The notes under the pieces: generated by a model | What the model saw: the letters and a program-made list of their open reading frames with translations, nothing else | Told to the model about the DNA's origin: nothing | Databases searched by the model: none | Position numbers and translations under genes: made by a program | Shown: positions 2-22,284 of the stretch, in pieces | Layout of the letters: each line of letters opens with the position of its first letter | Position numbering within the stretch: position 1 is the stretch's first letter | Source of the DNA: a virus | IMG/VR virus record: IMGVR_UViG_3300034284_000578 | Span: 44,577 to 108,576 of that record | DNA: 64,000 nucleotides | Strand: one strand, 5' to 3'

Positions 2-1258
2 AAAGCATCTGAAGCACAATGGGTAGTTCCAAAATTTATAAGAGCAAAAAATTTAAATGAAGAAGATGCTGCTTTACTAATTGGCACCGAACTTTATGTT
101 TTAGATGAAAATGGTTCAAAGACATTTTCTGCTATAATAGAAGATACGTATACATTTTACTATGCAAGTAATCCAATAACCACTTTAAATTTAATAAATG
201 TAACTGGAAATTTAAATAGTTCTAAAGTTTACTATAGCAAAAATGTATTTGGAGTAATAGAGGAATATAGTATTGATTTGTATTCTATGATAATAGATTA
301 CTATCTTTATAAATGCCCGGATTCTTTTGGTTATCCAATATATGATTTTGAAGTTGGAATGATCGTTAATTTGGTTAATTTGGGGACTGCTATTTGGCTA
401 TTGTGTAATGGTGGTGAAACCGTGGAAGCAATAACAGAAGATGGATGCACTCCACTTTATGGAGGAATTATAGATCCAGAAAGAATAGATTTACCTAATC
501 AAAATTTAAAGCACGAAGATTTTGGAGCAGGATTTGAAGCCCAAATTAGTAAAGTGAACGAAAAGGGCGAAATAGAAGAAATACAAATATTAGATCCTGG
601 ATTTAATTGGGGATTAAATGTAAATGGATATGGCACGCAATTTACAGGTAAGCCTAATCCCAAAATTGAAAGTACTGACAGACTTTATGATTGCAGAATA
701 CGTTATGTTACTGGTTATTTGTTTACTGGAACTGGGTTTTATAGAAGTAAAAAATCACTGTTAAGCCAAATGGGCATTCTTCAAGATAATTTTTATTATC
801 AACAAAACTCATATGAAATTGGTTCTAACGTTAATTCTTACAAATTTTCTGACATTTTAAAACAAAATGTACATCCTGCGGGGTATAAGGCATTTTATCG
901 ATATGATGTTTTAGACAATATTATTGAAAAACGCGAATTGACTACTTCTGAGCCGGGATCATTTGAATTGCGTTTTGGTTTTGATGAAGATGGAAATACA
1001 CTTGGTTCTGATGTTTATGAAAATATCATACAGACTGAATTTCAAACCTTTTCCAATTTTGCAAATTTTAAAATTGGTTTAGAACCACCTGAAGTTACTG
1101 ATCTAAATATACTGGAAGAAGAAATTATATACACCACAGATTTAGAAATTTCAACAAATGATATTCCAGAAGATTCTGACGGTATAGAAGATTCTCCGTT
1201 AGTAATTCCAAATGAATTAACTTCACCTCCCAGATCTACAACAAGTCCTATAGAATAA
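2..1258 (+). CDS. Large structural (tail/baseplate) protein, C-terminal part, 5' truncated
   Basis: The reading frame is open from the first bases of the window to a TAA at 1256-1258, so the gene begins upstream; the Met at 278 is internal. The visible 418 residues have no signal peptide or membrane segment. A segment around 768-880 carries the pattern GILQDNFYYQQ...SYEIGS...VHPAGYKAF. I recognise this pattern from C-terminal domains of tail and baseplate structural proteins of large T4-like phages. The last 60 residues are acidic and rich in Pro, Ser and Thr, like a linker or exposed tail. The stop is only 4 nt before the next start, so the two genes are probably translationally coupled. Virion location is inferred from the motif and from the surrounding structural cluster; the exact component is unknown. 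Confidence 0.6.
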   Translation, partial: KASEAQWVVPKFIRAKNLNEEDAALLIGTELYVLDENGSKTFSAIIEDTYTFYYASNPITTLNLINVTGNLNSSKVYYSKNVFGVIEEYSIDLYSMIIDYYLYKCPDSFGYPIYDFEVGMIVNLVNLGTAIWLLCNGGETVEAITEDGCTPLYGGIIDPERIDLPNQNLKHEDFGAGFEAQISKVNEKGEIEEIQILDPGFNWGLNVNGYGTQFTGKPNPKIESTDRLYDCRIRYVTGYLFTGTGFYRSKKSLLSQMGILQDNFYYQQNSYEIGSNVNSYKFSDILKQNVHPAGYKAFYRYDVLDNIIEKRELTTSEPGSFELRFGFDEDGNTLGSDVYENIIQTEFQTFSNFANFKIGLEPPEVTDLNILEEEIIYTTDLEISTNDIPEDSDGIEDSPLVIPNELTSPPRSTTSPIE

Positions 1259-1262
1259 AATT

Positions 1263-4200
1263 ATGCCAAATATTACTACATCAATAACTATTCAGCCCAC
1301 AATAAGCAGTTTGGATTCTTTAATAAATAGTCCGAATAATGCATATAATCAAGCATTGGGATCTTTGCCGGATGTTCCGCCACCCCCACCACCATCAACA
1401 GATGTGGTTATTGAAACCGATACAACAACAGATTTCGTATTCACTACAGACACAACAACAGATTTCGTATTCACTACAGACACAACAACAGATTTCGTAT
1501 TCACTACAGACACAACAACAGATTTCGTATTCACTACAGACACAACAACAGATGTTGTTGTTCCTCCATTGGATACTGATGTATCCGCATTAGACTACAC
1601 TGTTTGGGCAGCAGCATGGCAACGTGATGTAAATGTAAATGCACATTCTGTTGTTCCTATGATTTGGGTTGATCCTATGGGTGGATGGGGAGGACCAGGA
1701 ACTACAGATGTATTTACAGATGATGTGGTAAGTTCAACAAAATATAATCAATTTAAAACAACACTATTAAATGTACCAGAGGGAAGAAGAGTAATACAAC
1801 CAACATTTTGGGCAGCAGTTCCACCAAATTTAAATTGGTCACCTCTTACTTTTATTGATTATTATACTGCTTTGGATGGAACTACTTTTGATGGAAGAAA
1901 TATTTCTTGGACACCATGGCAAGAAAATATTATTGATGATGCAAAAACAAGTTTTAATCAATTTTTGGGTAGATGTAAAGCGGATGGTTTAACTTTTAAT
2001 TATATAACTGATAACACTTATTATGGTGATGGTGGTGCCCCAAGTATATGGAATTTATCAAAACCACCTGTAAGTGATAGAGATGCATACAAGATATACG
2101 TTTCAACCACCGGAAATGATAATTGGACTGGTCTATTCCCATATACTACAGGAACAAATGGACCAGTAAAAACAATTAAAAAGGCATCTGAACTTGCTAG
2201 AAATTATACAGGCAATAAAAACGTTGAAATTCAAATTCGTCAAGGTACATATCGTATGCTTGGCACAGATGCAAATCCTATCTTTTACTTAAATGAATCG
2301 AATAGTGGTAAAGAAGGAAAGTATATAACTTATAGACCATATAAGAATGAAACAGTCGTTATAAGTGGTGCTGAGGAAATAAGCCACAGTGCATTTACTT
2401 TAGTCAACTCTTCAGATTCTAAGTGGAGCAGAATATCGGCAGAAGCAAGAGGAAATGTTTATGTTGCTGATATTTCTGGTTATGATATTGGGCCCGGAAT
2501 TCCTTCCATGTGGAATGGTGGAAATATGGGTGGTGATGTTGGTAATGTCCAAGATATGCCTGCTTTGCCTGAATTGATTTTCAATGGCAAAACAATGACT
2601 GTTGCTAGATGGCCAAATAAAACATCACTCAATAGTAATGGATATACTTTTGGTGAATCTGCTGTAATTTCTTCTGTTGTCAGTAGTGGAACAAGCGGGG
2701 TGTGGTGTGTAGATCCAACTTATCTTGGAAGTAATGTCGATTTGTTAACAGATGGTCCGGCGGACGATGCAAGTTGTTATTGTGGTAGTGGTGCCCCACG
2801 TAATGAAAATTGCTTTCAAAATGCAACATTTACATATTCTTCAGATTATGATTCTGTTATTTCAACGTGGAGTAGTGCTGCAATAAATGATGGGATTTGG
2901 TTACACGGATTCTGGAGATGGGATTGGGCCGATGAAGCATATAAAGTCGTATCCATTAATACTGGTTCTAGAACTATTACTGTAGCATCAAAGAAGTCAC
3001 AATATGCTGTACAAAATTATTCACTTTGCAATCCAACAACTGGAGCATTAGATTCAACAGGAACATATTTATCCAATCCAACACCAAGACGTTGGTTTGC
3101 TCTTAATATTTTAGAAGAATTGGATACACCCGGTGAATATTACATCGATAGAGCCAACAAAAAGTTATATTTTTGGCCAACAGAAGCAATATCTGCTTCT
3201 TCAGAAATACGCATAACACACCGTGCAGTTGCTGGGCCCGGAGCAAAAGACGACGACGAGAATAGTTTTGAAGTTGGTTATCACCCAAACGGTTTCCCAG
3301 ACAGAACATGTTCAAAGTGTTTCCCATATAAAGGTTGGGAGGACACCAATTATGGTTGGTATCAACCCGGCGGCGCTTTGCAATCAAGACATGTTTACAA
3401 CAGCAAAAACACTTTAAAATCTCTATTTAAATTATACAAAACAAAAAATATTATAATTGAGGGATTAACTTTCCGTGATAGTGCTGGTAGTGGAATTGAA
3501 TTAAATCTATGCGAAAATGTAATTGTTCGCAAGTGCAAGATTTTTAACGTTAAAAAGGATGGAATAAATGCTATGGGTGGTAAAAATGTTACCATCGATA
3601 GTTGCACATTATATGATATTGGTAGAACTGCAATAATTAATACTGGCGGAAATAGACAAACTTTAGAACCAGCAAATAAATTGGTAACTAAATGTTCCAT
3701 TAAACGATGGAATAGAAATAAGTACAATTATGCTTCTGCTATAATTTTAAATGGCTGTGGCAACACTGCTTCTTATAATTTAATGTCTGATGGTAGTGCA
3801 GGTATACTGATTTATGGTGCAAATCTAACTGTAGAATATAACCATTTACATAATTTGATTGGAGAAACGGATGATGCTGGAGGAATATATGCAGGCAGAA
3901 ATACATCATTCATCAACAATGTAATCAGATACAATTTCTTTAACAACGTAAAAACTAATCTTCCGGGTGGTTATTATTACAGCAATTCAACAGTTCCGAG
4001 TGGTTGTGTTACTGCTGAAAATAAAAATACAGCAGGAACACACGGTGTTTATTTTGACGATTTAATGTCAAATTGTTCCGTTATTGGAAACGTTTTTTAT
4101 CAAATTGGTGGTGGTGAAGGATGTGCCGTATATTTTAATGGTGGTGTGAAAAACACTGTAAACAATAATCTTTTTATTGATTGTAATCGCGCATATGGTG

Positions 4201-7200
4201 CTGCGGTATCTACAAAAGGTTATTGGAATAATCATTTGAATGCTTCAAGAATAGCGATTGTTAATAATTTAAATTATCCTTGGTATGAAACTGGTGGACC
4301 GCTCGATTCAAATGGTAAAGAAACAAACGTTAGTGGATATAGTCCATACACTTGGTATGGTTCTGGTAATGGAAATACTTCTTGGGCTAATAACTCTTTA
4401 GCGGGAATAATGCCTGTTGTTGATATAACTGCCCCAATATATCAACAAACATGCCCACAATTATCTCAAATGATTTCTGTAAATGCTTCAAAGGTTGCAA
4501 CAATCGTTGAGGATGCTGCACAGTTTAAAAATAACACAAATAACAACGTAATAATTAATACTCCTTCGAATTCCGATAGGCTTGGAATTAACACCATTAG
4601 TGGTGAAACATGGTCGCAAGCAATATATGGAGGGTTTAATGTTGGTTCTGAATTAATAGAAGATACTAACACCGTTATTACTTTTGCTGAAAGAGCAAGT
4701 TTAAATTTCAAATTATCTGCTTCGGATTTGGCAACAATCAGAGCATCGTTGCCAACATTTGAAGATATTCCTTTTGAAAAAATACCAACATTATCTTATG
4801 TACCAGAATCTTATACTCAGCAAACATATTCAAACTGTGCTGTAGATAATAGACATTACACTTGCGAAAGAGATTTTTCAGATCCAGATGCTTTGGAGGC
4901 CATAGTAACTGATAGTAGATTTACAAGTACGGTAAATCCAGTAAATGGTAAAACGCTGTCGCAAGATTTTATGGATCGTTATAATGCTATTATTACTGAA
5001 ACAAATGGCATGGATCGTTCCCTATACACAAATCGAAGTTCCAGTTGGTATGTTTCACCAATAGCAACAGCATATAATGTACTATCTCCTAATTTTGGTT
5101 ACATTGTAGATGTTGGTGAACCATTTAGAATGCAACAGTTTCCGTGGTCCAATTCAAGTACAGATGCTGCAACTAGAGCATGGACTGGTGTGACTTTTGA
5201 TTGGGGAATTTATTATAGAACCACTTTCTTTAAGCAACCTCTTGCGAATAACGGTTATTCGAACGTCAAATATTCTATTGATTATTCTTATGCATTAAAT
5301 GCCGAAGAAGCACAATATGTTCAAGATCAATATGGTGGTTGGCAAGGAGACATAAGAGAAGATTACCCAGACGCTTTGTATACTCCACCATTATATGGTG
5401 AATTGGAAACTGGAATGTTTAATCGTTACACTTATGCAATAAATCCAGAAAATGATGATCAAAAATATTTGATGGGATTTGTGTGGGAAAATCAAGATTT
5501 ACCACAAGGTTATTTGAGATTTACAAGTCCAATTTGGGTTGCATTCTTAAGAGATATGAAACTATTAAGAGGCATAATTAGATCAAATCCAAACGCTTGG
5601 CAAAAATTGACACCTTGGATACCAAGTCCAGATGGTGGTGATATATCTGGTTCTAGAATGAGATATTCTAGAAGTCAAGGAGAAACGGCATTACAATTCT
5701 GGAAAGAAATGATTTTCCATGCTTGCTTACATGGAACACAACATTTTAATTATTGGAATTCTGGAGCCACATCTACAGTTGGTACAACAAATACATTAGA
5801 GTTGCACAATATTTTAGAAGAATGGCGTCAACGAAGCGGAAATAGTAGAGCGCAACCAGTAACAAATAGTAGAATTGCTGTTAATTCTTCTGTTATTATT
5901 AGTGGCGGTAGATTGCTTAGTAGTAACAAGTATCTTTGGAGAGTAACGGCTAAACCATCATCTTCAGTAACACTTAGAGCATACGGCAATTCTCTTGACA
6001 GAACCGACATTCCACAAACAATAACTTTAAATAATAACTCAAGAGGTGCTTGGCTTTTGACTGATAGTTCAGTTCCTCCAACTTATGTTCTTGATGAGGG
6101 TGGACAACAAGAAGATGTTGAATTGAAGTATATCACTTTGATGCGAGCAGATTATCATACTCAAATACACAGAGGTCGCGCCATATTTGGAGGCGCTTCT
6201 CACGACTATGGTAGTGGAATTGGATTTGATCAAAATGGTAAATCTCTCTCGGCTCTTCAATACATTTATAACACAGGTATTACATGGTCAGCTCACTCAG
6301 TTGGTAATTTGAATTGGTATTATGCTGCAAATTATAGATTAGATTCTAATGGAAATGCCATACCTGTCGTAGTTCGGACATCTCCCACAACAACCGTAAC
6401 TCACTGCAATAATGCATGTTATAGTAGTAGTGGTTGCTTCCAAGTACCAGGTATTCCTAGCATAATGTTTGTGAAATATATGTCCGAAACCGGCGAATGG
6501 GGAGCACCAATGCGTCCAAATGATCCATTCCCAAATGGTGCTGGTGGTAGTTTTGAATTTGTAACGGTAAATGGTGTTGTGTTTACAAAACAACCAACAG
6601 ATAGAGGAAAACCACTAGATTATAGTTTTACACATTATGGAAACAGCACCAATTCTTCTGGTATTCCTTATAGTTTCTGGGCAAGAACTCCAGCACAAAA
6701 TGGAAGAAATGATTTGGCATATGATTATACTTGGCAAGGAACAGTACAACTTAGACCTGGTCATGAACATGTCATTGACAGTAATAATTTAACAGTAAAA
6801 TTACGTCAACCTAGCGATGGTGCTCATCCTAAAAATGAACCGGGAAATATATGGAAGTATAAAGGTTTCGTTTTTGCACCAATAAGACAAGATGATGGAT
6901 GTGCTGATCATTTGTTTGTCGATCAATATAAAATGTTGTTAAACCTGTACAAAGCAGAGGAAGAATACAAATATTTTGTAATGAATTTGCCCACAGTACC
7001 TTCTTGCATTGTTCAAAGTGCAACTTGGAAATCTTTAGTTGCAGAAGAATTTGTAAATGGTGTGTTTAAACCAAAAGAAATATTTGTAAACTATGAAGAT
7101 GAATTAGTAGATCAAATTCGTTGTTTAAACATTACTGGCAGAACAGGTCCTAATAATTATGGTAGAATTAATAACCAACCACTAACCAATGAAATATGGG

Positions 7201-10200
7201 AAAGAATAGTTTCTTATATTAAATTGACCAGAAAAATGAATTATCATATTAAATCGGTATTTGGACCACAAGTTAAAATATCGCACTATGATATGTTTAA
7301 TTTACCATACTATCAGGAATGGAAACAGGGTTGGTGGCCAGCAAAAGATGGTCTTATATGGTCGACGGATTATTACACGGATATAGATAATGGTTGTCCA
7401 TTCTGTTCTGAATTGGACATAGATTACCCAGGTGATGTTGCGTATGCTGCTTTACCTTTAGAACAAAAACTAGTTTTTATACGCAAAGCAGTCGAAGCAT
7501 TACAGAGTAAAATATTTAAAATGGGTGCAGCGATTAGTAAAATGTGTCTATTTGAAAACGTAGAAGGACAACCAGATGTTCTTGACTTGAGACAAGAACT
7601 CTCAGAACTATTACCACAAATAGATCCTAATTTGTTTATTATTGAAGGATTAAATCACTATCCAAATTCTGCACATGGTGAAATATGTAATAACGTTCAC
7701 AAATATTATGCTGCAACTCCTAATGGATTTAATGAAGCCGCAGATGTAAATTTCAAAAATAATTCAGAAATAAACAAAAGTAGACAACAATCCATACACC
7801 ACAAAGAACAAGCCAGAGTTGGTATGTTTAATAATCAACGATCTGGTAAATTGTATTCTTGGTTTGTTCAGGGAGTTTGTGGTTCTGATGTGGCGGAAGC
7901 CATGTATGAATATTACAATTCCAATTTGAAAGATAATGCTGGATTTGTAAAATCTTGGACAGATACTAGCTTTGCTGCAACAGAAGTGTCTTCGTTCCCA
8001 TCTACAGAAACAGATCCAAATCATCTTGCTGGAGAAAGAATTTATAAAGTTAAATTTGCACCAAAAAATGCTTTAAGGAGAAGTTTTTTGAAACATATGC
8101 CATGGATTAACATGACAAATGATTTCTTAAATCGTTCTCAAATTGCAACAACAATCAAATATAAAGATGAGGTGATTTGGTCAGATAATAATATTTCCTC
8201 TGTTATAACTACAAATTTAAACGGAATAGCATCAGAACCAAAAGAATATCGCACTGAGGAGTATAACTTAAGACCATGTGCTCAAGGTGAATCACCAGTT
8301 TGTGTTTCAAATTGTCAACCAGGCGAAACACCAACGTTCAGTTGTAGAGATATAGTAGCAAATCCATATATAAAACCAAAACTGATAGAAGATAATTTTA
8401 AACTAAGAAACAATAATTTTGATACATTTAGTTGTAGTTCAGGAACTGCGGTAGTAGGGACCAATAAATCACCAAATTGTGTATCTTATTGCCATGTTGA
8501 TCCTGTTGTTCACGGTGCAGGTTCTACATCATATCCAACAACTAGTCTACTCAAAGCAAGAAGACACATTTATGGATTAGCGGTAGAGTATGCCGGTTAT
8601 GATGATATGGTAGCAATACCTCTTGAAGATTTTCCAAATGACATATATTGGGGTGGTTATCTGGGTGCAAATGGGGGCTTTGATCCATTTATCACCACAC
8701 CTCCTGCAACCGTATCGGCGGCTCAAGCACTTGATCGACCGGGTTGGCCTCATATTAGAGGAAGTGAAACTGCAAAACGAGCACAAGGATTAGGATTAAT
8801 TCTTGCTGCAAGAAAAGATTATTCAATTTACAAATACATTAAAAACCCAACACAAACAAATGTTAGAGATTGGCCACAACCAGCGGCAAACTTTGATGTG
8901 GACAGAAGACCAGGTATTGCTGCTACTATTACTGTATCTGGTGGACCAGGTGCTGAAGTAGTAATGGGCTATAGTGGTACAAACACAAATAGAGCAGAAT
9001 TCTTTAAGAAGTGTTTGGATGGAAGTGGAAATCCAATACCAAATGTTGGTTTCCAAAAACTTATTGATAACTATTTTACATGGAACTATGATAAGGGTGT
9101 TCGTAGATTTATGATTTGGACACCAGGCGGAACTGTATACCACACATATCCAAATGGTGAACGGCCAGCGGTATATACCTCTGCCATCACAAGTTCAATG
9201 GAACGTAGAATTTATGAAATTTATCAAGTCGCACAAGATGGTGTAACTACAGTAATTAATAAAATTGTAAATCCTGCCGAAGCATGTTGGAGAAATATAA
9301 CAACTCCAGTTGATGTATTCCCAACAGATGGACAAGTTAATACTCTTCTAATACCTGCAACTGTAGCAGAAGCAGAAAGTTATCCTCTTTGCTCTGATAC
9401 TGATTGGAATGGAACTTCACCTTGCTTTGATCCTGAAGGTAGAAAAAATGAAGTATTGACTTGTATGGAGCAATGGATTGATTCTCATCCAGACGCAGAT
9501 GTTGGTGTTTATATGGGTTATACAATACCAACCTTAAATGGTGAACCCGAAACTGGAACACCAACAATTATTGGTGATGCTGGTGGTGGTGGTTGGTTGC
9601 AAAATGCAGGAGATGCTGTTTGTTGTGAACCTGAGTGTTCTTTCAGTTTACTTTCAGATGCAAGTAATGGACTTCCTGCTAATAATCAAATCAGAAAACT
9701 GTTAGTAAATGGTAATACAATATATTCTGTAAATGCTGGTTCGGGTGGATTGTCTATATCCACTGATGGTGGTGCAACATATGTGACCAGAACAACAGCC
9801 AATGGTCTTGGAAGTAATACGATTAGTGATATTTTTGTTGTGGGTAATAATGTATATGCTGCAACTAACGGCGGATTATCTATCTCTACTGATGGTGGTC
9901 AAACTTTTATTAACAAAAGTGGTGGTTCTTCGGGTTTGGGGGGCACCAATTCAGCACATGTTGCTAGGATTAGTGGAGTTTTTGTAAAAAATAATACAAT
10001 TTATGCCGCAGTTGCGGGAGTTTCTGGTCCAACAGGAGGACAAACCGGGCTAGGTATTTCAACGGATGGTGGTGCTACTTTTACAATGCGAAATAGGACT
10101 AACAGCGGTTTAGGTGGTGGTAGCAGCGGTTCAGCTTGTAATACAGTATTTGTTGACACCGATAACAAAATTTATGTTGGAACACAGACCGGAGGATTGG

Positions 10201-11933
10201 GGATTTCAACCAATGGTGGCACCACCTTTACAATGAATGATTTTGGTGTCCAACTAGTTGACGTTCAACGTATAAAACAACTTAATAATAAACTTTATGT
10301 TGTTGCAAATAGAATTGGTATTTCTACTGATGGTGGACAAACATTTACCATTATTACACAAACAACTGCTCCGGGAATAATTCCTGGTTCTAATTTTATA
10401 GATTTGACACCAGTAACGAATGATATATTTTATACTAGTACGGGAACTGGTTTATACAAAACTATTAATAATGGACAATCTTTTACTAAAATTGATTTTG
10501 GTTACAATGGCTTATCACCAACATTAAATAGTTCCACAATAGAAATACACAACAATCTACTTTATATTGCTTCGTCGGCCGGTGGAGGAATAAGAGTAGG
10601 AACTAATTGTTTGCCAGCACCTTCTATTAGAGGATGGCAAATTCCAAATCCAGAAAATAATCCGGCACATGCTGCATTCTTACAATCCGAATTACAACCT
10701 TGGATTGATATTGGAATTAATTTCCTTGGAATGGATGTTGGAGTTGGTATGTTTAATTACCAATATGGTGGTGCATTGTCGTTTGGAGCAAATCCAGTAT
10801 CGAGAGAACCAGTTGGTGATTATAAACAATGGTTACAAACAACATTCCCAACCCTAAAAACAATCATTAATGAAGCAATACAACCCGACTGGAAAGCACC
10901 AGTATTGGATGAATTTAATAAACCAGTTGTTGGAAGAACTTATCCAAGAAAAACTCTGTTAAAGACAAATCGTGCAACAGAAGTATGTAAAGGTGTATTG
11001 GTTTCTTCTGAAACTTTGGGTGGAGAGCCTTGGAACACAGTATATACTGACGATTGCTGGCATAACAAAGGAAGAGAAAGATTTAGAAAACTAGATCCTG
11101 CTGGAAAAGATTACCGTACAGCGCAAGATCCTAATAATTTTGTTTATGCGCCAGGTGCATACCAATATTCTGCTTATATGATTCTTCTTAATGGTAATTT
11201 GAATTCATCAGAATGGAATATAGGATTACACAGTAATGCAAATACCATACAAGGTTGGGGTGGCTTAGATCCAAATAAAATGTGGTGTTGGTATAGAAAA
11301 AATACAGAAATTGGTTTATTTGTTGAAACCTTTTATCTGTTAAGTAAAACAATGAGAGATGCATATAGATTACAAAATCCAAATGAAGTGGATGCCGCTG
11401 GAAATAACACATATAATAATCTTTGGCAATTCACTCCAGCATGGCATGATAAAGGAATTTCTACACCTACTCCCACACCAAGTGGTGTTGCGTCTTGGGA
11501 TGGTAGAAATATATTGAGAGATAGTGATACCTACAACAAAGTAAGAAATGAAATGTTTGTCGAAGTTAAAAATTACATAGAAAGAGGATATGTTTATTGG
11601 ACTTCTCTCGGTAAAGATGCATTCCAAGTGCTTAAAGATGTACATTCTGATCTATTGAGTTATGTTGCCGGATTTGAATCCGACGACAATATCTTCCCAG
11701 AAGACGAAATTACAGAAAATCGTGCTACAGTTTTGTCGGACGATGTAAAAAATAATATAATAATTTCTACAGTATCTACAAAAGATAATGAAACCCTGTT
11801 GGCAACAGTAATAAATAATGAGGAAATAATTACAACAGATTTTGGTACAGATACTAGTCCGTTTGGAGATCCAGAATTAGTGGATTTTGAACCCAGCCCA
11901 GGGGAATTTGGTGGTGGTGGATTTGGACCATAA
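1263..11933 (+). CDS. Giant 3556-residue virion adhesin with beta-helix (GH141-like) and Asp-box modules
   Basis: Start chosen at the first ATG after the preceding stop; there is no clear Shine-Dalgarno, so coupling is likely. Visible order: a Pro-rich stretch at residues 38-45, then 10-residue DTTTDFVFTT repeats (about 54-96). Next comes a right-handed parallel beta-helix enzyme-like region (about 274-1000). It has YVSTTGNDNWTG, an IQIRQGTYRM pectate-lyase-type start, an ARWPN motif near 447, LDTPGEYYID near 620 and many N-rich coils. This combination resembles GH141-type beta-helix hydrolases. A long middle region (about 1150-2790) has no family I recognise, but is rich in Trp and Tyr. Six Asp-box motifs, (S/T)xDGGx(T/S)(F/Y)-like, lie at about 2833-3074. 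The C-terminus is Gly-rich. The likely role is host-surface binding and possibly glycan cleavage from the tail. Catalytic activity is inference only. Confidence 0.7.
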   Translation: MPNITTSITIQPTISSLDSLINSPNNAYNQALGSLPDVPPPPPPSTDVVIETDTTTDFVFTTDTTTDFVFTTDTTTDFVFTTDTTTDFVFTTDTTTDVVVPPLDTDVSALDYTVWAAAWQRDVNVNAHSVVPMIWVDPMGGWGGPGTTDVFTDDVVSSTKYNQFKTTLLNVPEGRRVIQPTFWAAVPPNLNWSPLTFIDYYTALDGTTFDGRNISWTPWQENIIDDAKTSFNQFLGRCKADGLTFNYITDNTYYGDGGAPSIWNLSKPPVSDRDAYKIYVSTTGNDNWTGLFPYTTGTNGPVKTIKKASELARNYTGNKNVEIQIRQGTYRMLGTDANPIFYLNESNSGKEGKYITYRPYKNETVVISGAEEISHSAFTLVNSSDSKWSRISAEARGNVYVADISGYDIGPGIPSMWNGGNMGGDVGNVQDMPALPELIFNGKTMTVARWPNKTSLNSNGYTFGESAVISSVVSSGTSGVWCVDPTYLGSNVDLLTDGPADDASCYCGSGAPRNENCFQNATFTYSSDYDSVISTWSSAAINDGIWLHGFWRWDWADEAYKVVSINTGSRTITVASKKSQYAVQNYSLCNPTTGALDSTGTYLSNPTPRRWFALNILEELDTPGEYYIDRANKKLYFWPTEAISASSEIRITHRAVAGPGAKDDDENSFEVGYHPNGFPDRTCSKCFPYKGWEDTNYGWYQPGGALQSRHVYNSKNTLKSLFKLYKTKNIIIEGLTFRDSAGSGIELNLCENVIVRKCKIFNVKKDGINAMGGKNVTIDSCTLYDIGRTAIINTGGNRQTLEPANKLVTKCSIKRWNRNKYNYASAIILNGCGNTASYNLMSDGSAGILIYGANLTVEYNHLHNLIGETDDAGGIYAGRNTSFINNVIRYNFFNNVKTNLPGGYYYSNSTVPSGCVTAENKNTAGTHGVYFDDLMSNCSVIGNVFYQIGGGEGCAVYFNGGVKNTVNNNLFIDCNRAYGAAVSTKGYWNNHLNASRIAIVNNLNYPWYETGGPLDSNGKETNVSGYSPYTWYGSGNGNTSWANNSLAGIMPVVDITAPIYQQTCPQLSQMISVNASKVATIVEDAAQFKNNTNNNVIINTPSNSDRLGINTISGETWSQAIYGGFNVGSELIEDTNTVITFAERASLNFKLSASDLATIRASLPTFEDIPFEKIPTLSYVPESYTQQTYSNCAVDNRHYTCERDFSDPDALEAIVTDSRFTSTVNPVNGKTLSQDFMDRYNAIITETNGMDRSLYTNRSSSWYVSPIATAYNVLSPNFGYIVDVGEPFRMQQFPWSNSSTDAATRAWTGVTFDWGIYYRTTFFKQPLANNGYSNVKYSIDYSYALNAEEAQYVQDQYGGWQGDIREDYPDALYTPPLYGELETGMFNRYTYAINPENDDQKYLMGFVWENQDLPQGYLRFTSPIWVAFLRDMKLLRGIIRSNPNAWQKLTPWIPSPDGGDISGSRMRYSRSQGETALQFWKEMIFHACLHGTQHFNYWNSGATSTVGTTNTLELHNILEEWRQRSGNSRAQPVTNSRIAVNSSVIISGGRLLSSNKYLWRVTAKPSSSVTLRAYGNSLDRTDIPQTITLNNNSRGAWLLTDSSVPPTYVLDEGGQQEDVELKYITLMRADYHTQIHRGRAIFGGASHDYGSGIGFDQNGKSLSALQYIYNTGITWSAHSVGNLNWYYAANYRLDSNGNAIPVVVRTSPTTTVTHCNNACYSSSGCFQVPGIPSIMFVKYMSETGEWGAPMRPNDPFPNGAGGSFEFVTVNGVVFTKQPTDRGKPLDYSFTHYGNSTNSSGIPYSFWARTPAQNGRNDLAYDYTWQGTVQLRPGHEHVIDSNNLTVKLRQPSDGAHPKNEPGNIWKYKGFVFAPIRQDDGCADHLFVDQYKMLLNLYKAEEEYKYFVMNLPTVPSCIVQSATWKSLVAEEFVNGVFKPKEIFVNYEDELVDQIRCLNITGRTGPNNYGRINNQPLTNEIWERIVSYIKLTRKMNYHIKSVFGPQVKISHYDMFNLPYYQEWKQGWWPAKDGLIWSTDYYTDIDNGCPFCSELDIDYPGDVAYAALPLEQKLVFIRKAVEALQSKIFKMGAAISKMCLFENVEGQPDVLDLRQELSELLPQIDPNLFIIEGLNHYPNSAHGEICNNVHKYYAATPNGFNEAADVNFKNNSEINKSRQQSIHHKEQARVGMFNNQRSGKLYSWFVQGVCGSDVAEAMYEYYNSNLKDNAGFVKSWTDTSFAATEVSSFPSTETDPNHLAGERIYKVKFAPKNALRRSFLKHMPWINMTNDFLNRSQIATTIKYKDEVIWSDNNISSVITTNLNGIASEPKEYRTEEYNLRPCAQGESPVCVSNCQPGETPTFSCRDIVANPYIKPKLIEDNFKLRNNNFDTFSCSSGTAVVGTNKSPNCVSYCHVDPVVHGAGSTSYPTTSLLKARRHIYGLAVEYAGYDDMVAIPLEDFPNDIYWGGYLGANGGFDPFITTPPATVSAAQALDRPGWPHIRGSETAKRAQGLGLILAARKDYSIYKYIKNPTQTNVRDWPQPAANFDVDRRPGIAATITVSGGPGAEVVMGYSGTNTNRAEFFKKCLDGSGNPIPNVGFQKLIDNYFTWNYDKGVRRFMIWTPGGTVYHTYPNGERPAVYTSAITSSMERRIYEIYQVAQDGVTTVINKIVNPAEACWRNITTPVDVFPTDGQVNTLLIPATVAEAESYPLCSDTDWNGTSPCFDPEGRKNEVLTCMEQWIDSHPDADVGVYMGYTIPTLNGEPETGTPTIIGDAGGGGWLQNAGDAVCCEPECSFSLLSDASNGLPANNQIRKLLVNGNTIYSVNAGSGGLSISTDGGATYVTRTTANGLGSNTISDIFVVGNNVYAATNGGLSISTDGGQTFINKSGGSSGLGGTNSAHVARISGVFVKNNTIYAAVAGVSGPTGGQTGLGISTDGGATFTMRNRTNSGLGGGSSGSACNTVFVDTDNKIYVGTQTGGLGISTNGGTTFTMNDFGVQLVDVQRIKQLNNKLYVVANRIGISTDGGQTFTIITQTTAPGIIPGSNFIDLTPVTNDIFYTSTGTGLYKTINNGQSFTKIDFGYNGLSPTLNSSTIEIHNNLLYIASSAGGGIRVGTNCLPAPSIRGWQIPNPENNPAHAAFLQSELQPWIDIGINFLGMDVGVGMFNYQYGGALSFGANPVSREPVGDYKQWLQTTFPTLKTIINEAIQPDWKAPVLDEFNKPVVGRTYPRKTLLKTNRATEVCKGVLVSSETLGGEPWNTVYTDDCWHNKGRERFRKLDPAGKDYRTAQDPNNFVYAPGAYQYSAYMILLNGNLNSSEWNIGLHSNANTIQGWGGLDPNKMWCWYRKNTEIGLFVETFYLLSKTMRDAYRLQNPNEVDAAGNNTYNNLWQFTPAWHDKGISTPTPTPSGVASWDGRNILRDSDTYNKVRNEMFVEVKNYIERGYVYWTSLGKDAFQVLKDVHSDLLSYVAGFESDDNIFPEDEITENRATVLSDDVKNNIIISTVSTKDNETLLATVINNEEIITTDFGTDTSPFGDPELVDFEPSPGEFGGGGFGP
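1422..1553 (+). repeat. In-frame 30-bp tandem repeat in the giant adhesin gene
   Basis: Four identical 30-bp units start at 1422, 1452, 1482 and 1512, followed by a 12-nt partial unit from 1542. Each unit encodes the ten residues DTTTDFVFTT in the adhesin frame. Because 30 is a multiple of three, gain or loss of a unit changes only the length of a Thr/Asp-rich linker. The identical copies suggest recent slippage or recombination. Confidence 0.95.
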
Positions 11934-14433: not shown

Positions 14434-16368
14434 ATGACTTTTAAGAATCCAGATTTTAGTTCAAATTCACCATATTATGATGATTTTGAGGAAGCAAAGA
14501 ACTTTCTAAAAATACTTTTTAAGCCTGGATATGCAGTTCAAGCCAGAGAACTGACACAACTGCAAACTATTTTGCAATCTCAAGTTGCAAAATTTGCTGA
14601 TCATATTTTTCAAGATGGTAGTCAAGTTTTTGGTGGTAAAATACAAATTGTTAATACACCTTATGTTCGTTTAGAAAAATATACACAATCCACCATAGGT
14701 GCTACGACAAATTTAGCAAACGATTATTTAACAAATCTTCCTACCAATTTATTAAAAGTTTATAGCAAATCTGGAACAACATTTACCGAATTAGCAACAG
14801 TAAAAATATCGTATTTTGAACCATCCGGTTATTCTGCTGCTGATGATTATGCTGTTGCATTTTATAATGTAATTTCTATTGCAGAAACTCAAAACGGTAC
14901 ATTTGATATGCAACGGGAATATTACATTGGTTCTTCCACTGCTGGACCATTTGTAAAAGTTATAAATCCAACACAACAAACAACAACACCAGTTCAATAT
15001 ACAGTTGAACCATTCGGAAATGGTTACTTAGTAACTGTGGATGATGGTATTTTTTACATAGATGGTTATTTTGTAACTACACAAAAACAAACAATATCTC
15101 TATTTAAAAAATCTTCTCAGTATGAATCTGATTTTAGTATTGACACCGGATTAACATATAACTGGGCAAGTCAAGGTGTCAGATTATTTAATAAACCATC
15201 ACACAGAATTGGTTATACTATAAATCGTCAAATTGTTACTGCTACAGAAGATAGTACTCTAAATGATCCAGCGCGAGGATTTTATAATTACAATGCACCG
15301 GGTGCCGATAGATACAAAATTTCTCTAGAACTTACTCAAATTGAATATCGTTCTGGTATTGTAGATATTGATAATTATGTTACAACCGATTTCATCCAAA
15401 TTTTAAGAACAACAAATGGTGTAGTAGATTACATCAAAGATAAATCTTCTTATTCGCAGATTTTAGATTTATTTGCAAAAAGAACTCAAGACGAATCTGG
15501 TTCTTATACAGTTAAACCATTCATTGCTGAAGTAAAAAATCATTTAAGAAAAGATAGATATGTTTTAACAGTTAGCAATGATTCAATTACAAGTATGTTT
15601 CCGGCTACATCTTTTAGACCAGCAATAGATGGTTATGTGTGGGCGGGTTCTGCTGCATTTAATCCATATACTTCACCTTCATTAGCAAATGAACCATTTG
15701 TTATTGCAAAAATTGTGGATGTCATTGGTGATTATGATGCAAGTTTAGCAACACCAAAATCATTAAAAATTGTGGTCGAATTGCAAAATGCAAATAAATT
15801 TGCATTTGGACCTGCTTCGTATTTCTTAAAAAATACAAGCACTGGTGCCATAACTGGATTTAATATAAGTGGTGTTGAATTACAAATAGATTCTAAAGGA
15901 ACCTATTCCTTATCAGATGTGCCTGTTGGTGATCCAACTAAGATGACAATTACAATGCAACCCGGAAAGGCATATGTTTATGGTTATAATTATGAAACAT
16001 TTGCACCAAGAAGCGTTGATTATGTTATAAATGGGAATCAAACAGATATAAAGGTAGTTACTGGTCAAAATGTAGAATTTGAAGTTGGAAATTATGTTAA
16101 AGGTGTATTTGTACCAAGAATAACAACAAATACTATAAATTATGAACAAATGCCTTCTTTGGATTTGGTTGATGTTGATACAAATACATTTTTGATTTAT
16201 CCTGCAAATACAACTACAGCAGAAAGAAGAATATATGCATGGGCCCCATTCCTTGGAGCAAGTGAAGATATACAAGGTGACATGATTGATATGGTGTATT
16301 TAACCGATAGTGAAGGATTAGATGGTGCGAGATTTCCACACGAAAGCGTAATCTTTGTGGCCGAATAA
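14434..16368 (+). CDS. DUF4815-type tail structural protein, N-terminal half
   Basis: The opening residues contain SPYYDDFEEAKNF, then LFKPGYAVQARELTQLQTIL and FADHIFQDGSQVFGGK. This is the characteristic start of the DUF4815 family found in tail or fibre proteins of T4-like marine phages. The protein then runs through beta-rich sequence to a stop at 16366-16368, giving 644 residues. The next gene carries the other signature blocks of the family, so the family's usual single chain seems to be split here into two. SD GAGGA at 14425-14429 overlaps the stop codon of the gp8-like gene, spacing 4. Role: virion component, probably attached to the baseplate; precise position unknown. Confidence 0.6.
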   Translation: MTFKNPDFSSNSPYYDDFEEAKNFLKILFKPGYAVQARELTQLQTILQSQVAKFADHIFQDGSQVFGGKIQIVNTPYVRLEKYTQSTIGATTNLANDYLTNLPTNLLKVYSKSGTTFTELATVKISYFEPSGYSAADDYAVAFYNVISIAETQNGTFDMQREYYIGSSTAGPFVKVINPTQQTTTPVQYTVEPFGNGYLVTVDDGIFYIDGYFVTTQKQTISLFKKSSQYESDFSIDTGLTYNWASQGVRLFNKPSHRIGYTINRQIVTATEDSTLNDPARGFYNYNAPGADRYKISLELTQIEYRSGIVDIDNYVTTDFIQILRTTNGVVDYIKDKSSYSQILDLFAKRTQDESGSYTVKPFIAEVKNHLRKDRYVLTVSNDSITSMFPATSFRPAIDGYVWAGSAAFNPYTSPSLANEPFVIAKIVDVIGDYDASLATPKSLKIVVELQNANKFAFGPASYFLKNTSTGAITGFNISGVELQIDSKGTYSLSDVPVGDPTKMTITMQPGKAYVYGYNYETFAPRSVDYVINGNQTDIKVVTGQNVEFEVGNYVKGVFVPRITTNTINYEQMPSLDLVDVDTNTFLIYPANTTTAERRIYAWAPFLGASEDIQGDMIDMVYLTDSEGLDGARFPHESVIFVAE

Positions 16369-16380
16369 TTAACGGATACA

Positions 16381-16388
16381 CATAAATA
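16381..16388 (+). promoter_or_regulatory. Putative late promoter CATAAATA
   Basis: Seven of eight bases match the T4 late -10 element TATAAATA. It is in the 36-nt gap between the two DUF4815-related genes, 16 nt before the next ATG, and followed by AAAAGGG as ribosome binding site. Confidence 0.5.
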
Positions 16389-16404
16389 AGATAAAAGGGT
16401 AAAA

Positions 16405-19400
16405 ATGGCATTAACAACAGAAACAGATAACGGTTATAAGAATGGTTTGTCAAACGAACTCATGAGAGTTTCGGGTGAAACTAGTCAAGCAACATACACT
16501 GCGAGTTGTTTTTCTGACAAGGTTCCCGATGTCATTAGAATTAACTTTTTAGATCCATTTAGAGGGAACTTTAGAACTGCTTACGATCCAACCCGAACAA
16601 ATCTGGATGAAAGTTTAGATGGACAAAGAGGGTTTCGTGAAGAAATATTTTTAGAAGCAACAAGTCAAGGTAATTATGATATTTTAAAACATTTTAGAGT
16701 TAAACAAATTGACGGTTTAACTGGTAATGTTGTAGCAGAAGGTATTCCTTTAAGATGGGTTCCACCATCAGCAGATGGAAGAGGTGGAACGTTATTCATA
16801 AAGGTACTATATCAAGATTTACCAAATCCTACAACTTTTAATCAAGCAAATGGTGTAATATATTGTGACGCAATTGATCAATTTACATATGGTGGGAAAA
16901 CATATAGTGGTAATCCAATATCCGTTGGTACTACAATTAAATCTATACAAACAGTTTCTAACGTTTATAAACTAACAAGCGTTGAGGCTTATAATAGTGC
17001 CCCATCCACTCTACCTTGCGTTGGTGGTACAGAAGGTGTAATTACTTTGGGTAAAGGAATATATCAAAGCGGTCAAAGAGTAGTTTTGAAAGAATTATTA
17101 GCCGCAAATGGTTCTCCATGTACTAGTAGTTTTTCAGGTACGGGTGTAGTAATATCATCCACAATTGATACACTATCACAAAAAGTTTCGGTTTTCGTGG
17201 AGTTTGATCAACCACTAAACGATACTGCTGGAGAGAACGGCAATTGTTCGAATTGTACAAATACATCTGAAAGACTAGTTCTCTGCACAGGAGATGCTTC
17301 TGGTAGTTGCTTATCATCATGTTGCATATATTCTATCGATAACGTTAGAAAAATAAGTACACCAGAGTGTGGTACTGTACAAAAAATATATTTTTCGGAT
17401 GAGATTGCAGAAACCGGAGAATTTGTGCCTGGTAGAGAACTCTATCAATGGAAATATGAAAATTGTGGAAACCATCCCGGTAATGCGGCATTTTATACCA
17501 CAAAACAAGCAGATGCTCAATCTAAAATTGTCGGTGAATATTTAAATTGGGATACGGCGACTAAAGTTCTTTATGTTCTTTGTCCAAATTCTATAATGCA
17601 AATTAAGTACGGAAACGTATATCAATTAACAGAAACAGGAACTTTATTGTCTAGAGGTAGTGGTATATCTCCAACCAGTAAATTTGAAAGAAGAACAGGT
17701 TCATTTGTAAATCTGAGAAATACCACAGAAACACCAACCTATATTTCTGGTAGAGAATATCAACAAGTTTGGGACAGTACATCAGGAGGAGAGTTACTGG
17801 TTCAAACATTGACCAGTACTTCAACTTCATATAATACAAACTATGAATATGTAATTGGTGAAACTGTATTGCAAGCACTTACTGAAGATTTTGATGGTAA
17901 TGTTGTTGGTTATGCTGCTGGTACTGTTGTAGATTGGCAACCAAATACAACGGCTCTCGATAGTGTTCCAAGTATATTAACTATTAAAAGAAAGAAAATT
18001 GGTACAGAAAATCCTTTATTCATTGATACAAATGATCCATTAATTCCAGCCACAACAGAACTTGCTCGTTTTAGATTTGGTACAAATCTTGCACCAACCA
18101 CTACAGGTACACTATTAAAAAATACAAAAAGAAATATTCTTCCTTTGCGTGTGTTTGAAACAGTAAATACCACAGGAAATATAGCAACAGACTGGTATGA
18201 TTTTAGTTCTGAAAATGTTGTTCAGAACTCCACAACAACTGAACTAACTGATACTGTTGTCGTTGCTTCTATAGGAACGATTGCTAAAGGATCATCAATA
18301 GGTTCTACCAGAATAAAGGCAATAAAATTAAATGCAGGAAATGTTTACGATATTTCGTTGATGAATACAAATATATTCTATAATGAGCCTGTTTCATTTA
18401 AAGATGTAACTCAAATTGGTAAATCAAATATTTTAACAAATACTACTGGTGTGTCATATAGTTCAATTGAACCAGTTATAGAAGTACAACAAGACTATAT
18501 TAGTGGTGAATATGTAACTAGAATATTTAATCCTACCTCAGATAAACAAATAATACCATTACCAGCAGGCGATGTAATTGAAAATGTAACGTCTGGATCT
18601 GGTAATTTTGGTTCTACTTTATTAACAATACAACAAATTTTTGATGTAAATTTCCCATCAAATAGTGCAGAAGTTTTCATTGAAGGTAATATTAATGGTG
18701 CAGAATTTCCTAGTACATTTTCCACAACATATTCATTTGCAATAGATCAACTTGGTAATAGTTTAAATTTGGTTAAATATAACAATTTAGCAGCTGCTAA
18801 TGCTGAACCTTCAGACAACAATACACTGTATTATGATGTAATTGTAGCAGATGATGCAAATGTTGGTATAAAATTTAAGAAAAAATCAACAAGTACTGTT
18901 ACTAGTATTATCTTTGGTTCTGAAGTAAAGTGTTCTGCATCAAATGTTATAAAGGAAAAACGACAAAAAACATTTAATGCTACAACTTATTTGACGTACA
19001 ATACGTCTGGGCCATTTAAAGATAAATGGACTGCGATTATTCCCATTACAGGCGCTATTGATGTTTATAAATTAAATTCTGTTTTTGGTGTTTCCGGAAC
19101 ATCTTCACTTACAATAATTACAAACAATGTAAAAGATTGGTTCGGTATTTCAAAGGAAACAGACGATTATTTGTATAAACCAAGTATTTTAGTTCTAAAC
19201 GGAAACGGTGTCACAACAAATACAAATACTGATCCAAATCAAGGACCAATAACACCAACTGTACCAACTTTTGGTTTATTTGAGCGAGAAGGACTAACCG
19301 AAAATTATAGAGTAAAAATTAGAGTTAATGGTCTTGGATATGAAGGACCAACAGGTGGGGGAATTGTAGTCAGAGAATCTTATAAAGATACTAATGGTAA

Positions 19401-22284
19401 TCTTTTAAGTGTTAAAAATATTCCGTATTATGTCTCCAAAGTGGATGGAGAACAATATCATAGTACTGCATTTATAGATTGCAGAGGCACTTTAGTTGAT
19501 GATATTGTTTTCAATAAATTTGTAATATTACCACAATCATCTACAATTGGTACTACTCTTGGTGTGTATGCGCCCAGATATGATATTTTGTACATTAATA
19601 AAAATGGTTCATTTAAAGTTGCTTATGGAACTGCATCGTTTAATCCATCATATCCAGAATTGCCAGAAGATGGAATGATTCTCTATAAGATAAAGAAACC
19701 AAGTTATGTTTTTGATAATCAAGCACTAACTTTACAATATACAGACAATAGACGCTATACAATGCGCGACATTGGAAAATTGGAAAAGAGAGTACAACAA
19801 TTAGAAGTATATTCTGCCTTGTCCTTGTTGGAAAAAGACGCAGATTCACTTTTAGTTGAAGATGTTAATGGTAATAACAGATTTAAAAATGGTATAATTG
19901 TAGATCCATTTGAAAACCACAAAATTGGTGAAGTTTCTCACGTAGATTATAATGTTGCCGTAGATCCTACAGAAACTTGTCTACGTCCAAAAGCACAAAC
20001 AGAAAATTTAAAATTGTCATATGTGACTCCTACAGAGTCTGCAAAATTTATTGAGGTTTTAAATACTAAAACTGGCGTGACCGGAAATGTAAGTAATCCT
20101 TCAATATCAACTGGATTGTTTATGCTTCCATTTACTGAAACGGCATTCGTCGTTCAACCACAAGCAACTCGTGCAATGTCAGTTACTCCATTTGAAACAT
20201 TAAACCTTGAAGGTACTGTTCGTCTTTCTCCAAGAGAAGATGACTGGGTAGATACTGAAACTAGACCAGATTTGAATGTAAATCTTGCTGGAGAAAATGA
20301 TATATGGGAAGATATTTTGGATGAACTAAATTCATCTGAAGATGGTCCTTTTGCTTTGAACTTTGGTAATTGGTCTGAATTAAGTAGACAAACTACTTCA
20401 AACACAACAACCAATACAACAAGAAGAGGAAGAAGAAGAACAACAACTAGAACTACAACTACCAATTCAACAATAAGAGAAGAAAGAAATATTACTGGAG
20501 AACAACTGCGAACCGGAACTGAACAAGTTTCTTTGGGTGATCGGGTTGTGGATGTTTCTTTCATTCCTTATATGAGAGGTAGAAGAATTAAAATAGTAAT
20601 TACTGGTTTGAAAACCAATGCTAGACTATATCCGTTCTTTGACGGTGTTGATGTTTCACAATATTGCTATTTGTATAATACTTTGGGTGCTTTAGATACA
20701 GATCTAGCACAAGTTTCTTTGACCGAAGCGAATAAATTTACAAATACCAATAGTGGGTTTAAGAAATCTTCCGCACAAGGAAATGCTTTTATAATTTTTG
20801 ATATGCCAACTGGTACTTTTAGAACTGGTGATAGAAAATTTACAATTTCAGATAACCAAAATAATGATTTTTCAAGAGCAACTACGTTTGCAACCGGAAC
20901 ATATTCCGCATCTGGTCTTTCTCAAGTAAGAGAAACAACAAAAGCAACAATTAGAACTTTTGAAACTGAAACAATTAATATAACAGAAGAAAGAGTAAGA
21001 TCTGAAACGGCTGTAAATGTTCAAACAACAACTGTTCGTGTAGATCCTTTGGCACAAACATTTACAATAAATCCAGAACTCTATCCAAATGGAATATTTT
21101 TAAGTAGCATTGATGTTTTCTTTGCAAGAAAACCCGATAATTCTACAAACATTCCAGTAAAGGTAGAAGTAAGACCAACTGTAAATGCATTCCCAGATGC
21201 ATATAAAATTTATCCCGGTGGTATCTCTATACTTCACCCAAGTCAAGTTAATGTTTCAGATACACCATCTGCTAACAATTCCGCAACAGCAACAAGATTT
21301 AATTTTGAAACTCCGGTATATCTTGAACCGGGTGAGCATTGCTTTATTGTAAGGTCAACAACAGATGAATATGAAATTTATGTTGCAGAAATAGGTCAAA
21401 CATTAGTTAATAGTACACAAAGAGTAACAGAACAACCATATGTTGGTGTTTTCTTCAGTTCTTCAAATGCAACTACTTGGTTGCCACAACCAGCAATGGA
21501 TATGATGATGGTACTCAATAAGTGTGAATTTACCCCAAATCAAACATATACTTTTGCATGTAAAACAAATGTTGCCGGAAAAGATGTAAAATATGAGTTA
21601 TTGAATCTAAATAATGCTTATCAAGAATTTGATGTTTCAAAACTTTTCTGGAGAATAAGTGATAATAATACATTAAATGGAACATATTCTCCAATTAATG
21701 CAAATGAAAACGTTAAATACACCTCCACAAAAACATTACTAGATGGTGAATCTTTATACTTCAAGGCAACAGCATTAACTACAAGTAAAGATGTTTGCCC
21801 AATTGTTAACACCGAAAGAATGAGTGCATTCTTGGTAAAGAATTTGATAGAAAATAACAGCTCCACACAAACCAATGGAGAATTGAATCCATATGCAAAT
21901 GATTTTGGTGATATAAAGAGAACTAGATATATTACAAAAATAGTAACTCTTGAAGAAGGATTTGAATCTACTGGATTTAAATTAATACTATCTGTAAATA
22001 AGCCTGTTGGTACAAAAATAAAAGCATTCTTAAAGTATCAACCAGCAGAACAAACAAAAACATTCCACGAAAATCCATATGTTGAACTTGTTCCTGATAT
22101 GGGTTCTTCAGCATTTGATAGTTTCTTTACAAGAACAGAAGAAGAATATGTCGATGTTCAATTTGCTTTACCAGTAGACTCTTCTTCGCCATATAATAAA
22201 TTTGCTATAAAACTGTGTTTGTTTAGTGATAATCCTGCGTTTGTACCAAAAATACAAGATTTAAGAGGAATTGCTGTTCTATGA
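16405..22284 (+). CDS. 1959-residue tail structural protein with DUF4815-type C-terminal blocks
   Basis: The N-terminal half is beta-rich with several Cys clusters (for example CSNCTNTSERLVLC near residue 284) and no family I recognise. From about residue 1105 it carries the block RYTMRDIGKLEKRVQQLE, a short coiled coil, followed by LLEKDADSLLV and DPFENHKIGEVSHVDYN. Farther on comes DPLAQTF near 1550 with FARKPDNSTNIPVKVEVRP. These blocks are typical of the C-terminal part of T4-like tail proteins whose N-terminus is the DUF4815 domain found here in the preceding gene. A low-complexity Thr/Arg stretch lies at about 1330-1355. SD AAAAGGG precedes the ATG, and a CATAAATA late-type promoter lies just upstream. 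Likely a long fibre or baseplate attachment component. Confidence 0.6.
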   Translation: MALTTETDNGYKNGLSNELMRVSGETSQATYTASCFSDKVPDVIRINFLDPFRGNFRTAYDPTRTNLDESLDGQRGFREEIFLEATSQGNYDILKHFRVKQIDGLTGNVVAEGIPLRWVPPSADGRGGTLFIKVLYQDLPNPTTFNQANGVIYCDAIDQFTYGGKTYSGNPISVGTTIKSIQTVSNVYKLTSVEAYNSAPSTLPCVGGTEGVITLGKGIYQSGQRVVLKELLAANGSPCTSSFSGTGVVISSTIDTLSQKVSVFVEFDQPLNDTAGENGNCSNCTNTSERLVLCTGDASGSCLSSCCIYSIDNVRKISTPECGTVQKIYFSDEIAETGEFVPGRELYQWKYENCGNHPGNAAFYTTKQADAQSKIVGEYLNWDTATKVLYVLCPNSIMQIKYGNVYQLTETGTLLSRGSGISPTSKFERRTGSFVNLRNTTETPTYISGREYQQVWDSTSGGELLVQTLTSTSTSYNTNYEYVIGETVLQALTEDFDGNVVGYAAGTVVDWQPNTTALDSVPSILTIKRKKIGTENPLFIDTNDPLIPATTELARFRFGTNLAPTTTGTLLKNTKRNILPLRVFETVNTTGNIATDWYDFSSENVVQNSTTTELTDTVVVASIGTIAKGSSIGSTRIKAIKLNAGNVYDISLMNTNIFYNEPVSFKDVTQIGKSNILTNTTGVSYSSIEPVIEVQQDYISGEYVTRIFNPTSDKQIIPLPAGDVIENVTSGSGNFGSTLLTIQQIFDVNFPSNSAEVFIEGNINGAEFPSTFSTTYSFAIDQLGNSLNLVKYNNLAAANAEPSDNNTLYYDVIVADDANVGIKFKKKSTSTVTSIIFGSEVKCSASNVIKEKRQKTFNATTYLTYNTSGPFKDKWTAIIPITGAIDVYKLNSVFGVSGTSSLTIITNNVKDWFGISKETDDYLYKPSILVLNGNGVTTNTNTDPNQGPITPTVPTFGLFEREGLTENYRVKIRVNGLGYEGPTGGGIVVRESYKDTNGNLLSVKNIPYYVSKVDGEQYHSTAFIDCRGTLVDDIVFNKFVILPQSSTIGTTLGVYAPRYDILYINKNGSFKVAYGTASFNPSYPELPEDGMILYKIKKPSYVFDNQALTLQYTDNRRYTMRDIGKLEKRVQQLEVYSALSLLEKDADSLLVEDVNGNNRFKNGIIVDPFENHKIGEVSHVDYNVAVDPTETCLRPKAQTENLKLSYVTPTESAKFIEVLNTKTGVTGNVSNPSISTGLFMLPFTETAFVVQPQATRAMSVTPFETLNLEGTVRLSPREDDWVDTETRPDLNVNLAGENDIWEDILDELNSSEDGPFALNFGNWSELSRQTTSNTTTNTTRRGRRRTTTRTTTTNSTIREERNITGEQLRTGTEQVSLGDRVVDVSFIPYMRGRRIKIVITGLKTNARLYPFFDGVDVSQYCYLYNTLGALDTDLAQVSLTEANKFTNTNSGFKKSSAQGNAFIIFDMPTGTFRTGDRKFTISDNQNNDFSRATTFATGTYSASGLSQVRETTKATIRTFETETINITEERVRSETAVNVQTTTVRVDPLAQTFTINPELYPNGIFLSSIDVFFARKPDNSTNIPVKVEVRPTVNAFPDAYKIYPGGISILHPSQVNVSDTPSANNSATATRFNFETPVYLEPGEHCFIVRSTTDEYEIYVAEIGQTLVNSTQRVTEQPYVGVFFSSSNATTWLPQPAMDMMMVLNKCEFTPNQTYTFACKTNVAGKDVKYELLNLNNAYQEFDVSKLFWRISDNNTLNGTYSPINANENVKYTSTKTLLDGESLYFKATALTTSKDVCPIVNTERMSAFLVKNLIENNSSTQTNGELNPYANDFGDIKRTRYITKIVTLEEGFESTGFKLILSVNKPVGTKIKAFLKYQPAEQTKTFHENPYVELVPDMGSSAFDSFFTRTEEEYVDVQFALPVDSSSPYNKFAIKLCLFSDNPAFVPKIQDLRGIAVL

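Follow-up and report, generated by a model that had tools for sequence, protein, structure and literature searches.

The locus described here raises the question of whether a phage can carry, inside one of its own giant proteins, a glycan-cutting enzyme of a type otherwise confined almost wholly to secreted bacterial enzymes, and what such an enzyme would do there. The window (the whole stretch of DNA analysed, 64,000 nucleotides) corresponds to bases 44577 to 108576 of a 108.6-kb viral record with T4-like myovirus genes for tail sheath, portal, major head protein, terminase and baseplate-wedge proteins. The portal and capsid showed no more than 53–54% identity to their counterparts in Pelagibacter, Methylophilales and cyanobacterial phages, so this is probably a T4-like phage from water, of a group that is likely aquatic and without a close relative in the phage collection. 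A search for psbA as a host indicator found none in the viral record.

The enzyme-like region lies in a 3556-aa open reading frame (ORF) that is flanked upstream by a baseplate-wedge gene (window 2–1258), whose counterpart in locus L016 matches several baseplate-wedge families, and on the other side by a phrog_438 baseplate-wedge gene. The location in a giant protein, as the sequence-only reading had it, was borne out, and the gene of this protein belongs to the baseplate cluster. In addition, residues 1–57 were 44–53% identical among the giant proteins of the window, L011 and L016 (alignment A6). From this gene order and the shared N-terminal segment we infer that the giant protein sits on the virion, with residues 1–57 as its proposed anchor. 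The corresponding features are as follows.

1263–11933, plus strand: giant modular protein of 3556 aa between baseplate-wedge genes, a proposed tail or baseplate adhesin with the module
1263–1433, plus strand: N-terminal segment (residues 1–57), proposed virion anchor, common to the L011 and L016 giant proteins

Close to its N-terminus, the giant protein has tandem TTDTTTDFVF repeats (window 1416–1580), with a copy number that differs between L005 and the window, and the L011 giant protein also has a similar TTD-rich stretch.

The enzyme module had been placed at about residues 274 to 1000. Its existence was confirmed, with an in-frame start at 2082 or 2088, but its end lies further downstream. 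Conservation with bacterial proteins was still detected at the C-terminal residues F1166, P1170 and I1174, and the match to other phage proteins spans residues 259–1187, so the module runs to about residue 1175–1187 (nt 4787–4823). The motifs quoted earlier were all found in frame (YVSTTGNDNWTG at residues 279–290, ARWPN at 448–452, LDTPGEYYID at 620–629 and EGLTFRDSAGSGIELNLC at 733–750). The turn described as DSGK-like is present too, but the window has NSGK there, and the bacterial relatives have DSGT. The module could be divided into the following parts.

2088–4787, plus strand: GH141-like beta-helix enzyme module (residues 276–1175), supported by structure model, fold searches, bacterial relatives and alignments
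2088–2387, plus strand: first segment of the module, upstream of the insertion (residues 276–375), with YVSTTGNDNWTG and VVISG
2388–3227, plus strand: inserted domain (residues 376–655), putative counterpart of the GH141 beta-sandwich insertion, with ARWPN and LDTPGEYYIDR; GH141_M below cut-off
3231–3401, plus strand: phage-only loop of low confidence (residues 657–713), absent from the bacterial relatives
3420–4223, plus strand: principal coils of the beta-helix, where the catalytic groove is predicted (residues 720–987); Pfam Beta_helix at 724–797, pLDDT mostly 85–98

The Pfam Beta_helix profile scored above its cut-off, with 33.8 bits on the whole protein and 40.7 on the module alone, whereas GH141_M (PF21231) gave 15.6–17.8 bits and did not reach its cut-off of 27. 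When the region was searched alone with phmmer, a solved beta-helix protein (9rx2) was recovered at 9e-16; this match and the full-length bacterial relatives described below (E to 5e-71) indicate that the homology is not due to chance. The dN/dS values of the module, 0.13 against L003 and 0.17 against L005, revealed purifying selection; in the comparison with L003, they were 0.32 in the propeller region and 0.25 in block C. In L005, the giant ORF is broken by an in-frame TGA at about 10628–10630 (equivalent in the window to a point near 4359), right after the beta-helix coils, yielding ORFs of 1032 and 2496 aa, of which the downstream part still showed a dN/dS of 0.25. The interruption may reflect a genuine split, a break of recent date or an error in the sequencing.

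An AlphaFold2 model of the module, built with 47 aligned sequences (module position + 267 = ORF residue), showed a right-handed beta-helix with an inserted domain, with a mean pLDDT of 72 and a pTM of 0.81. The coils and much of the insertion were above 80 and the core coils above 85, while values below 50 were concentrated in loops at module positions 213–246, 390–446 and 728–782. In Foldseek, the top PDB match was BT_1002 (5mqp, 6e-21), and the second family was represented by the GH120 beta-xylosidase XylC (3vst, 2e-10). The VIA alignment with BT_1002 reached a Z of 36.2 over 499 residues (rmsd 2.9 Å), and the entries after it had Z values of 29.8 or less over about 270–370 residues. Its ranges (7–916 of the model against 18–618 of the BT_1002 chain) cover the insertion, although they are ranges only and the insertion is partly below pLDDT 50. 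The proposed GH141-like plan, with a predicted inserted domain, was recovered by structure prediction and fold comparison, which also predicted a groove and put BT_1002 ahead of the PL6-type beta-helices. Among the predicted viral structures of BFVD, no close match was found: the best E-value was 3e-7 with a TM of at most 0.25, and the match with the best coverage had a TMt of 0.50.

The PL6 lyases and the mannuronan epimerases belong to the same fold class, with Z values of 25–30, and a PL6 enzyme (6qps) was also matched weakly by profile (5e-6), so it might be asked if the groove performs some other carbohydrate chemistry, as a lyase or epimerase of the PL6 or AlgE type. We consider this very improbable, as those matches span just about 300–370 residues, and the longer match, together with the pair of aspartates described next, points specifically to the hydrolase BT_1002.

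In BT_1002, catalysis is assigned to D523 as the putative nucleophile and to D564 as the putative acid/base (PMC10154630); D540 and D577 of Xyn141E correspond to them (PMC10154630, PMC5593877). Profile A4, covering the catalytic coils, did not align to BT_1002, so the residues were mapped through the GH141 locus L105. In the alignment, 5mqp carries the motifs YDVAGVYTLG and YTDEGSS, whose aspartates count to chain positions 528 and 569; their spacing of 41 is the one required, and it suggests that the chain numbering runs 5 ahead of the published one throughout. L105 has SDGGGIYTLG and GIYHDEG at the catalytic places, and in alignment A5 these share columns with D871 (DDAGGIYAG) and D932 (GVYFDD) of the window; both L105 and a second GH141 locus, L108, hold the Asp pair in these columns.

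3873–3875, plus strand: D871, putative nucleophile, equivalent to BT_1002 D523; conserved in 47 of 47 sequences, mapped via L105 to 5mqp
4056–4058, plus strand: D932, putative general acid/base, equivalent to BT_1002 D564; conserved in 47 of 47 sequences, mapped via L105 to 5mqp

Not only this pair but also E858, N860, N891 and N943 were invariant in all the 47 aligned phage and bacterial relatives, and the local pLDDT was about 88 at both aspartates. The expected acidic residues of the groove were thus present and missing from none of the relatives aligned. Between the two acids (about residues 899–925) lies an insertion of some 20 residues, partly of low confidence, that only the phages have. 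Either this insertion or the long loop before the main coils could change or block substrate access. Such phage-specific loops near the groove, in a protein otherwise built from probable binding modules (FN3, RCC1, propeller), would be compatible with a module that has kept the fold of the enzyme and acts as a lectin-like glycan-binding arm with no useful hydrolysis. However, every one of the five phage types retains the catalytic acids and the E and N residues around them, none of which a pure binder would need, and this makes the alternative unlikely.

The closest known system is family GH141, which includes its founding enzyme BT_1002 (5mqp, an alpha-L-fucosidase acting on RG-II), the xylanase Xyn141E and the Wf141 endo-fucanases. 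The window module shares with them the right-handed beta-helix, a predicted domain inserted after its first part, the equivalent of the D523/D564 pair, an N-terminal YVST-G-D motif and the PGE(Y/W)Y(I/L)D end of the insertion. It differs in that it lies within a 3556-aa phage protein instead of being a secreted enzyme, in two additional loops, one of about 57 residues and one of about 20, and in an identity of only about 24% to the Pfam-positive GH141 loci, with GH141_M below the cut-off. The GH120 enzyme XylC also has a beta-helix with an inserted domain, as a weaker match than GH141. The catalytic pair of XylC is Asp/Glu.

A search of bacterial genomes with an alignment as query revealed at least 544 related stretches among at least 590 examined, unlike the search with a single sequence, which found nothing in these genomes. 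Among the best 80 of these stretches, many were nearly full-length (E to 5e-71), and they came chiefly from Lentisphaerae, Kiritimatiellae, Planctomycetes and Verrucomicrobia, with some from Paenibacillus, Bacteroidota and others. These proteins (L017–L096) are homologous to the window module along its full length, and the bacterial set has the same Asp pair; a protein of solved structure, 9rx2 ("parallel beta-helix repeat protein"), was matched by profile at 8e-73. Unlike the window module, most of the bacterial members are stand-alone proteins, many with signal-like N-termini. In the members checked, GH141_M scored at most 25.4 bits, again below 27, in contrast to 41.1 for L105 and 40.3 for L108. 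By sequence, then, the module is assigned to a sister clade of GH141: the label GH141-like stands, and strict membership in the family does not. To our knowledge, no activity has been measured for this bacterial clade.

On the phage side, six module sequences of five types were found, most types being only about 40–45% identical to the window module. No PHROG matched the module, and the GenBank phages gave no near DNA match and a single tblastn match, MT835657. This entry (L109, MT835657.1, "Bacteriophage sp.") was discarded as a phage relative, since it is actually a mislabelled bacterial polysaccharide-utilisation cluster with SusD, GH95, two alpha-L-fucosidase, two sulfatase and GH20 genes. 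The literature combining GH141 and phage contained nothing relevant, and no previous description of a virion protein with a module of GH141 type came to light for phages.

In the trees, the phage modules formed one fully supported group, so that a single capture, or one common ancestor, is enough to explain them. Quick trees placed this group next to a subgroup of Lentisphaerae, Kiritimatiellae, Planctomycetes and Verrucomicrobia (SH-aLRT 98–99), nested inside the bacteria. Such nesting was not retained, because a constrained tree with all the bacteria on one side was equally good (AU test, p 0.71), which leaves the donor and the direction of the transfer unproven. A bacterial source is nonetheless favoured by the wide spread of the module in bacteria and its absence from PHROGs and GenBank phages, and the long stem of the phage clade (1.4 changes per column) argues against a recent event. 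Of the transfer from a bacterium suggested earlier, the distribution supports the bacterial source, and the tree leaves donor and direction unsupported; an old transfer from bacteria, of unproven direction, is plausible.

Pairwise comparison of the giant proteins showed that the module of the window and of L003–L005 separates the two halves of a carrier domain. In the window, these halves and a further region of repeats are located as follows.

1584–2087, plus strand: carrier domain, N-terminal half, ahead of the inserted module (residues 108–275); both halves have homologues in L011 and L016
4788–6752, plus strand: C-terminal half of the carrier domain, block B (residues about 1176–1830), with homology to L011, L016 and L120
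9645–10562, plus strand: propeller-like repeats of BNR type (GLSISTDGGATY type; residues about 2795–3100), inserted where block C gives way to block D; L016 and L006 lack them

The propeller-like repeats scored 47 bits with NCBIfam NF045728, below its cut-off of 175. In L119 and L120, the carrier domain is present without the beta-helix, and that of L120 runs continuously across the insertion site of the window, with about 15 bridging residues. The module of L016 occupies the same site as in the window, in a protein with an N-terminal esterase-like SASA domain and with RCC1 repeats elsewhere; in L006 and L011 it is found further downstream, between blocks B and C, and in L011 the site that holds the module in the window is taken by RCC1 repeats. 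L012 encodes a different protein, in which the module lies behind a row of FN3-like repeats and ahead of RCC1 repeats. A module that turns up at such varied positions, with RCC1, FN3, propeller or esterase-like neighbours, is a movable unit. Since beta-helices are rigid stalks in many tail proteins, the module could also be regarded as a mere spacer or structural stalk of the fibre; yet a spacer would not need to retain the catalytic pair, and related adhesins lose or relocate the module, which renders this explanation hardly credible.

Several other observations were made on these proteins. The SASA-like carbohydrate esterase domain of L016 (8291–9970), at the N-terminus of a 3976-aa giant protein, has a GESNAGG motif and a Pfam score of 20.1 bits (E 0.0005), under the cut-off of 24.8. 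The related adhesin without beta-helix of L120 (3522–9647, 2041 aa) has a central region that resembles toroid-type polysaccharide lyases by eye, where Pfam found nothing. The L012 adhesin has two neighbours (16017–18305, 18372–20930): one is tailspike-like (phrog_14558, phrog_13768), and the other contains long runs of collagen-like GPQGPQG repeats. Upstream there are, by eye, genes for sugar-nucleotide and sialic-acid-type synthesis. A TIM barrel was considered for the carrier domain but not retained: the AlphaFold model of the uninterrupted L012 copy had a pLDDT of 36, and no fold is claimed for it.

As to the substrate, GH141 includes fucosidases and endo-fucanases (PMC12786026) as well as a xylanase (PMC5593877). 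The bacterial relative L031 lies in a cluster with sulfatases and GH95-type genes. These activities, together with the gene content of the L031 and MT835657 clusters, offer a lead to a fucose-containing or sulphated glycan as a possible substrate. The "algal-type" glycans proposed at first were not favoured over a glycan of the host envelope or slime.

Phage tailspike depolymerases (HK620, Sf6, CBA120 TSP2, Klebsiella K1 lyase 7w1c) are virion-borne beta-helix enzymes that cut surface glycans, as is proposed for the window protein. Known ones are trimeric. No sequence similarity between them and the window module was found, and in structure Sf6 and CBA120 TSP2 matched it less well than BT_1002 did, with a Z of about 25 across some 300 residues. 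With the tailspikes ranking well below BT_1002 and no PHROG match, the view that the module is nearer to bacterial enzymes than to known tailspikes was upheld.

Altogether, we favour, with a probability of roughly two in three (0.68), a virion-borne, catalytically competent GH141-like glycosidase that cuts a glycan of the host surface or slime; it probably serves the phage to breach the sugar coat around its host. In the mechanism proposed, the N-terminus would fix the giant modular adhesin to the baseplate, so displaying the hydrolase on the particle, and the adjoining modules would bind glycan. A host-surface or slime glycan would lie in the beta-helix groove, to be hydrolysed there by the D871/D932 pair, and its cleavage would clear a path for the particle, or anchor it, during adsorption, as in other virion-borne depolymerases. 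In favour of this reading are the predicted fold, the conserved catalytic pair, the purifying selection, the mobility of the module, the baseplate gene context, the SASA-like domain that accompanies the module in L016, and the sulfatase, GH95 and alpha-L-fucosidase genes near bacterial relatives in two clusters. A broader and rather doubtful proposal is that an aquatic T4-like phage lineage builds its adhesins from several exchangeable enzymes: a GH141-like hydrolase captured from bacteria, a domain of acetylesterase type and binding modules would move between insertion sites of a conserved carrier, and the virion would thereby bear a set of enzymes for fucosylated or sulphated host glycans.

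In conclusion, a GH141-like hydrolase would represent a new catalytic type among the depolymerases borne on virions. It occurs in a group of environmental T4-like phages for which little is known of the interaction with the host surface, and the enzyme module can be seen relocating among related giant adhesins. As D871 and D932 are named, their mutation would test the role of the module directly, and, if active, the module would provide a new reagent for complex aquatic glycans.
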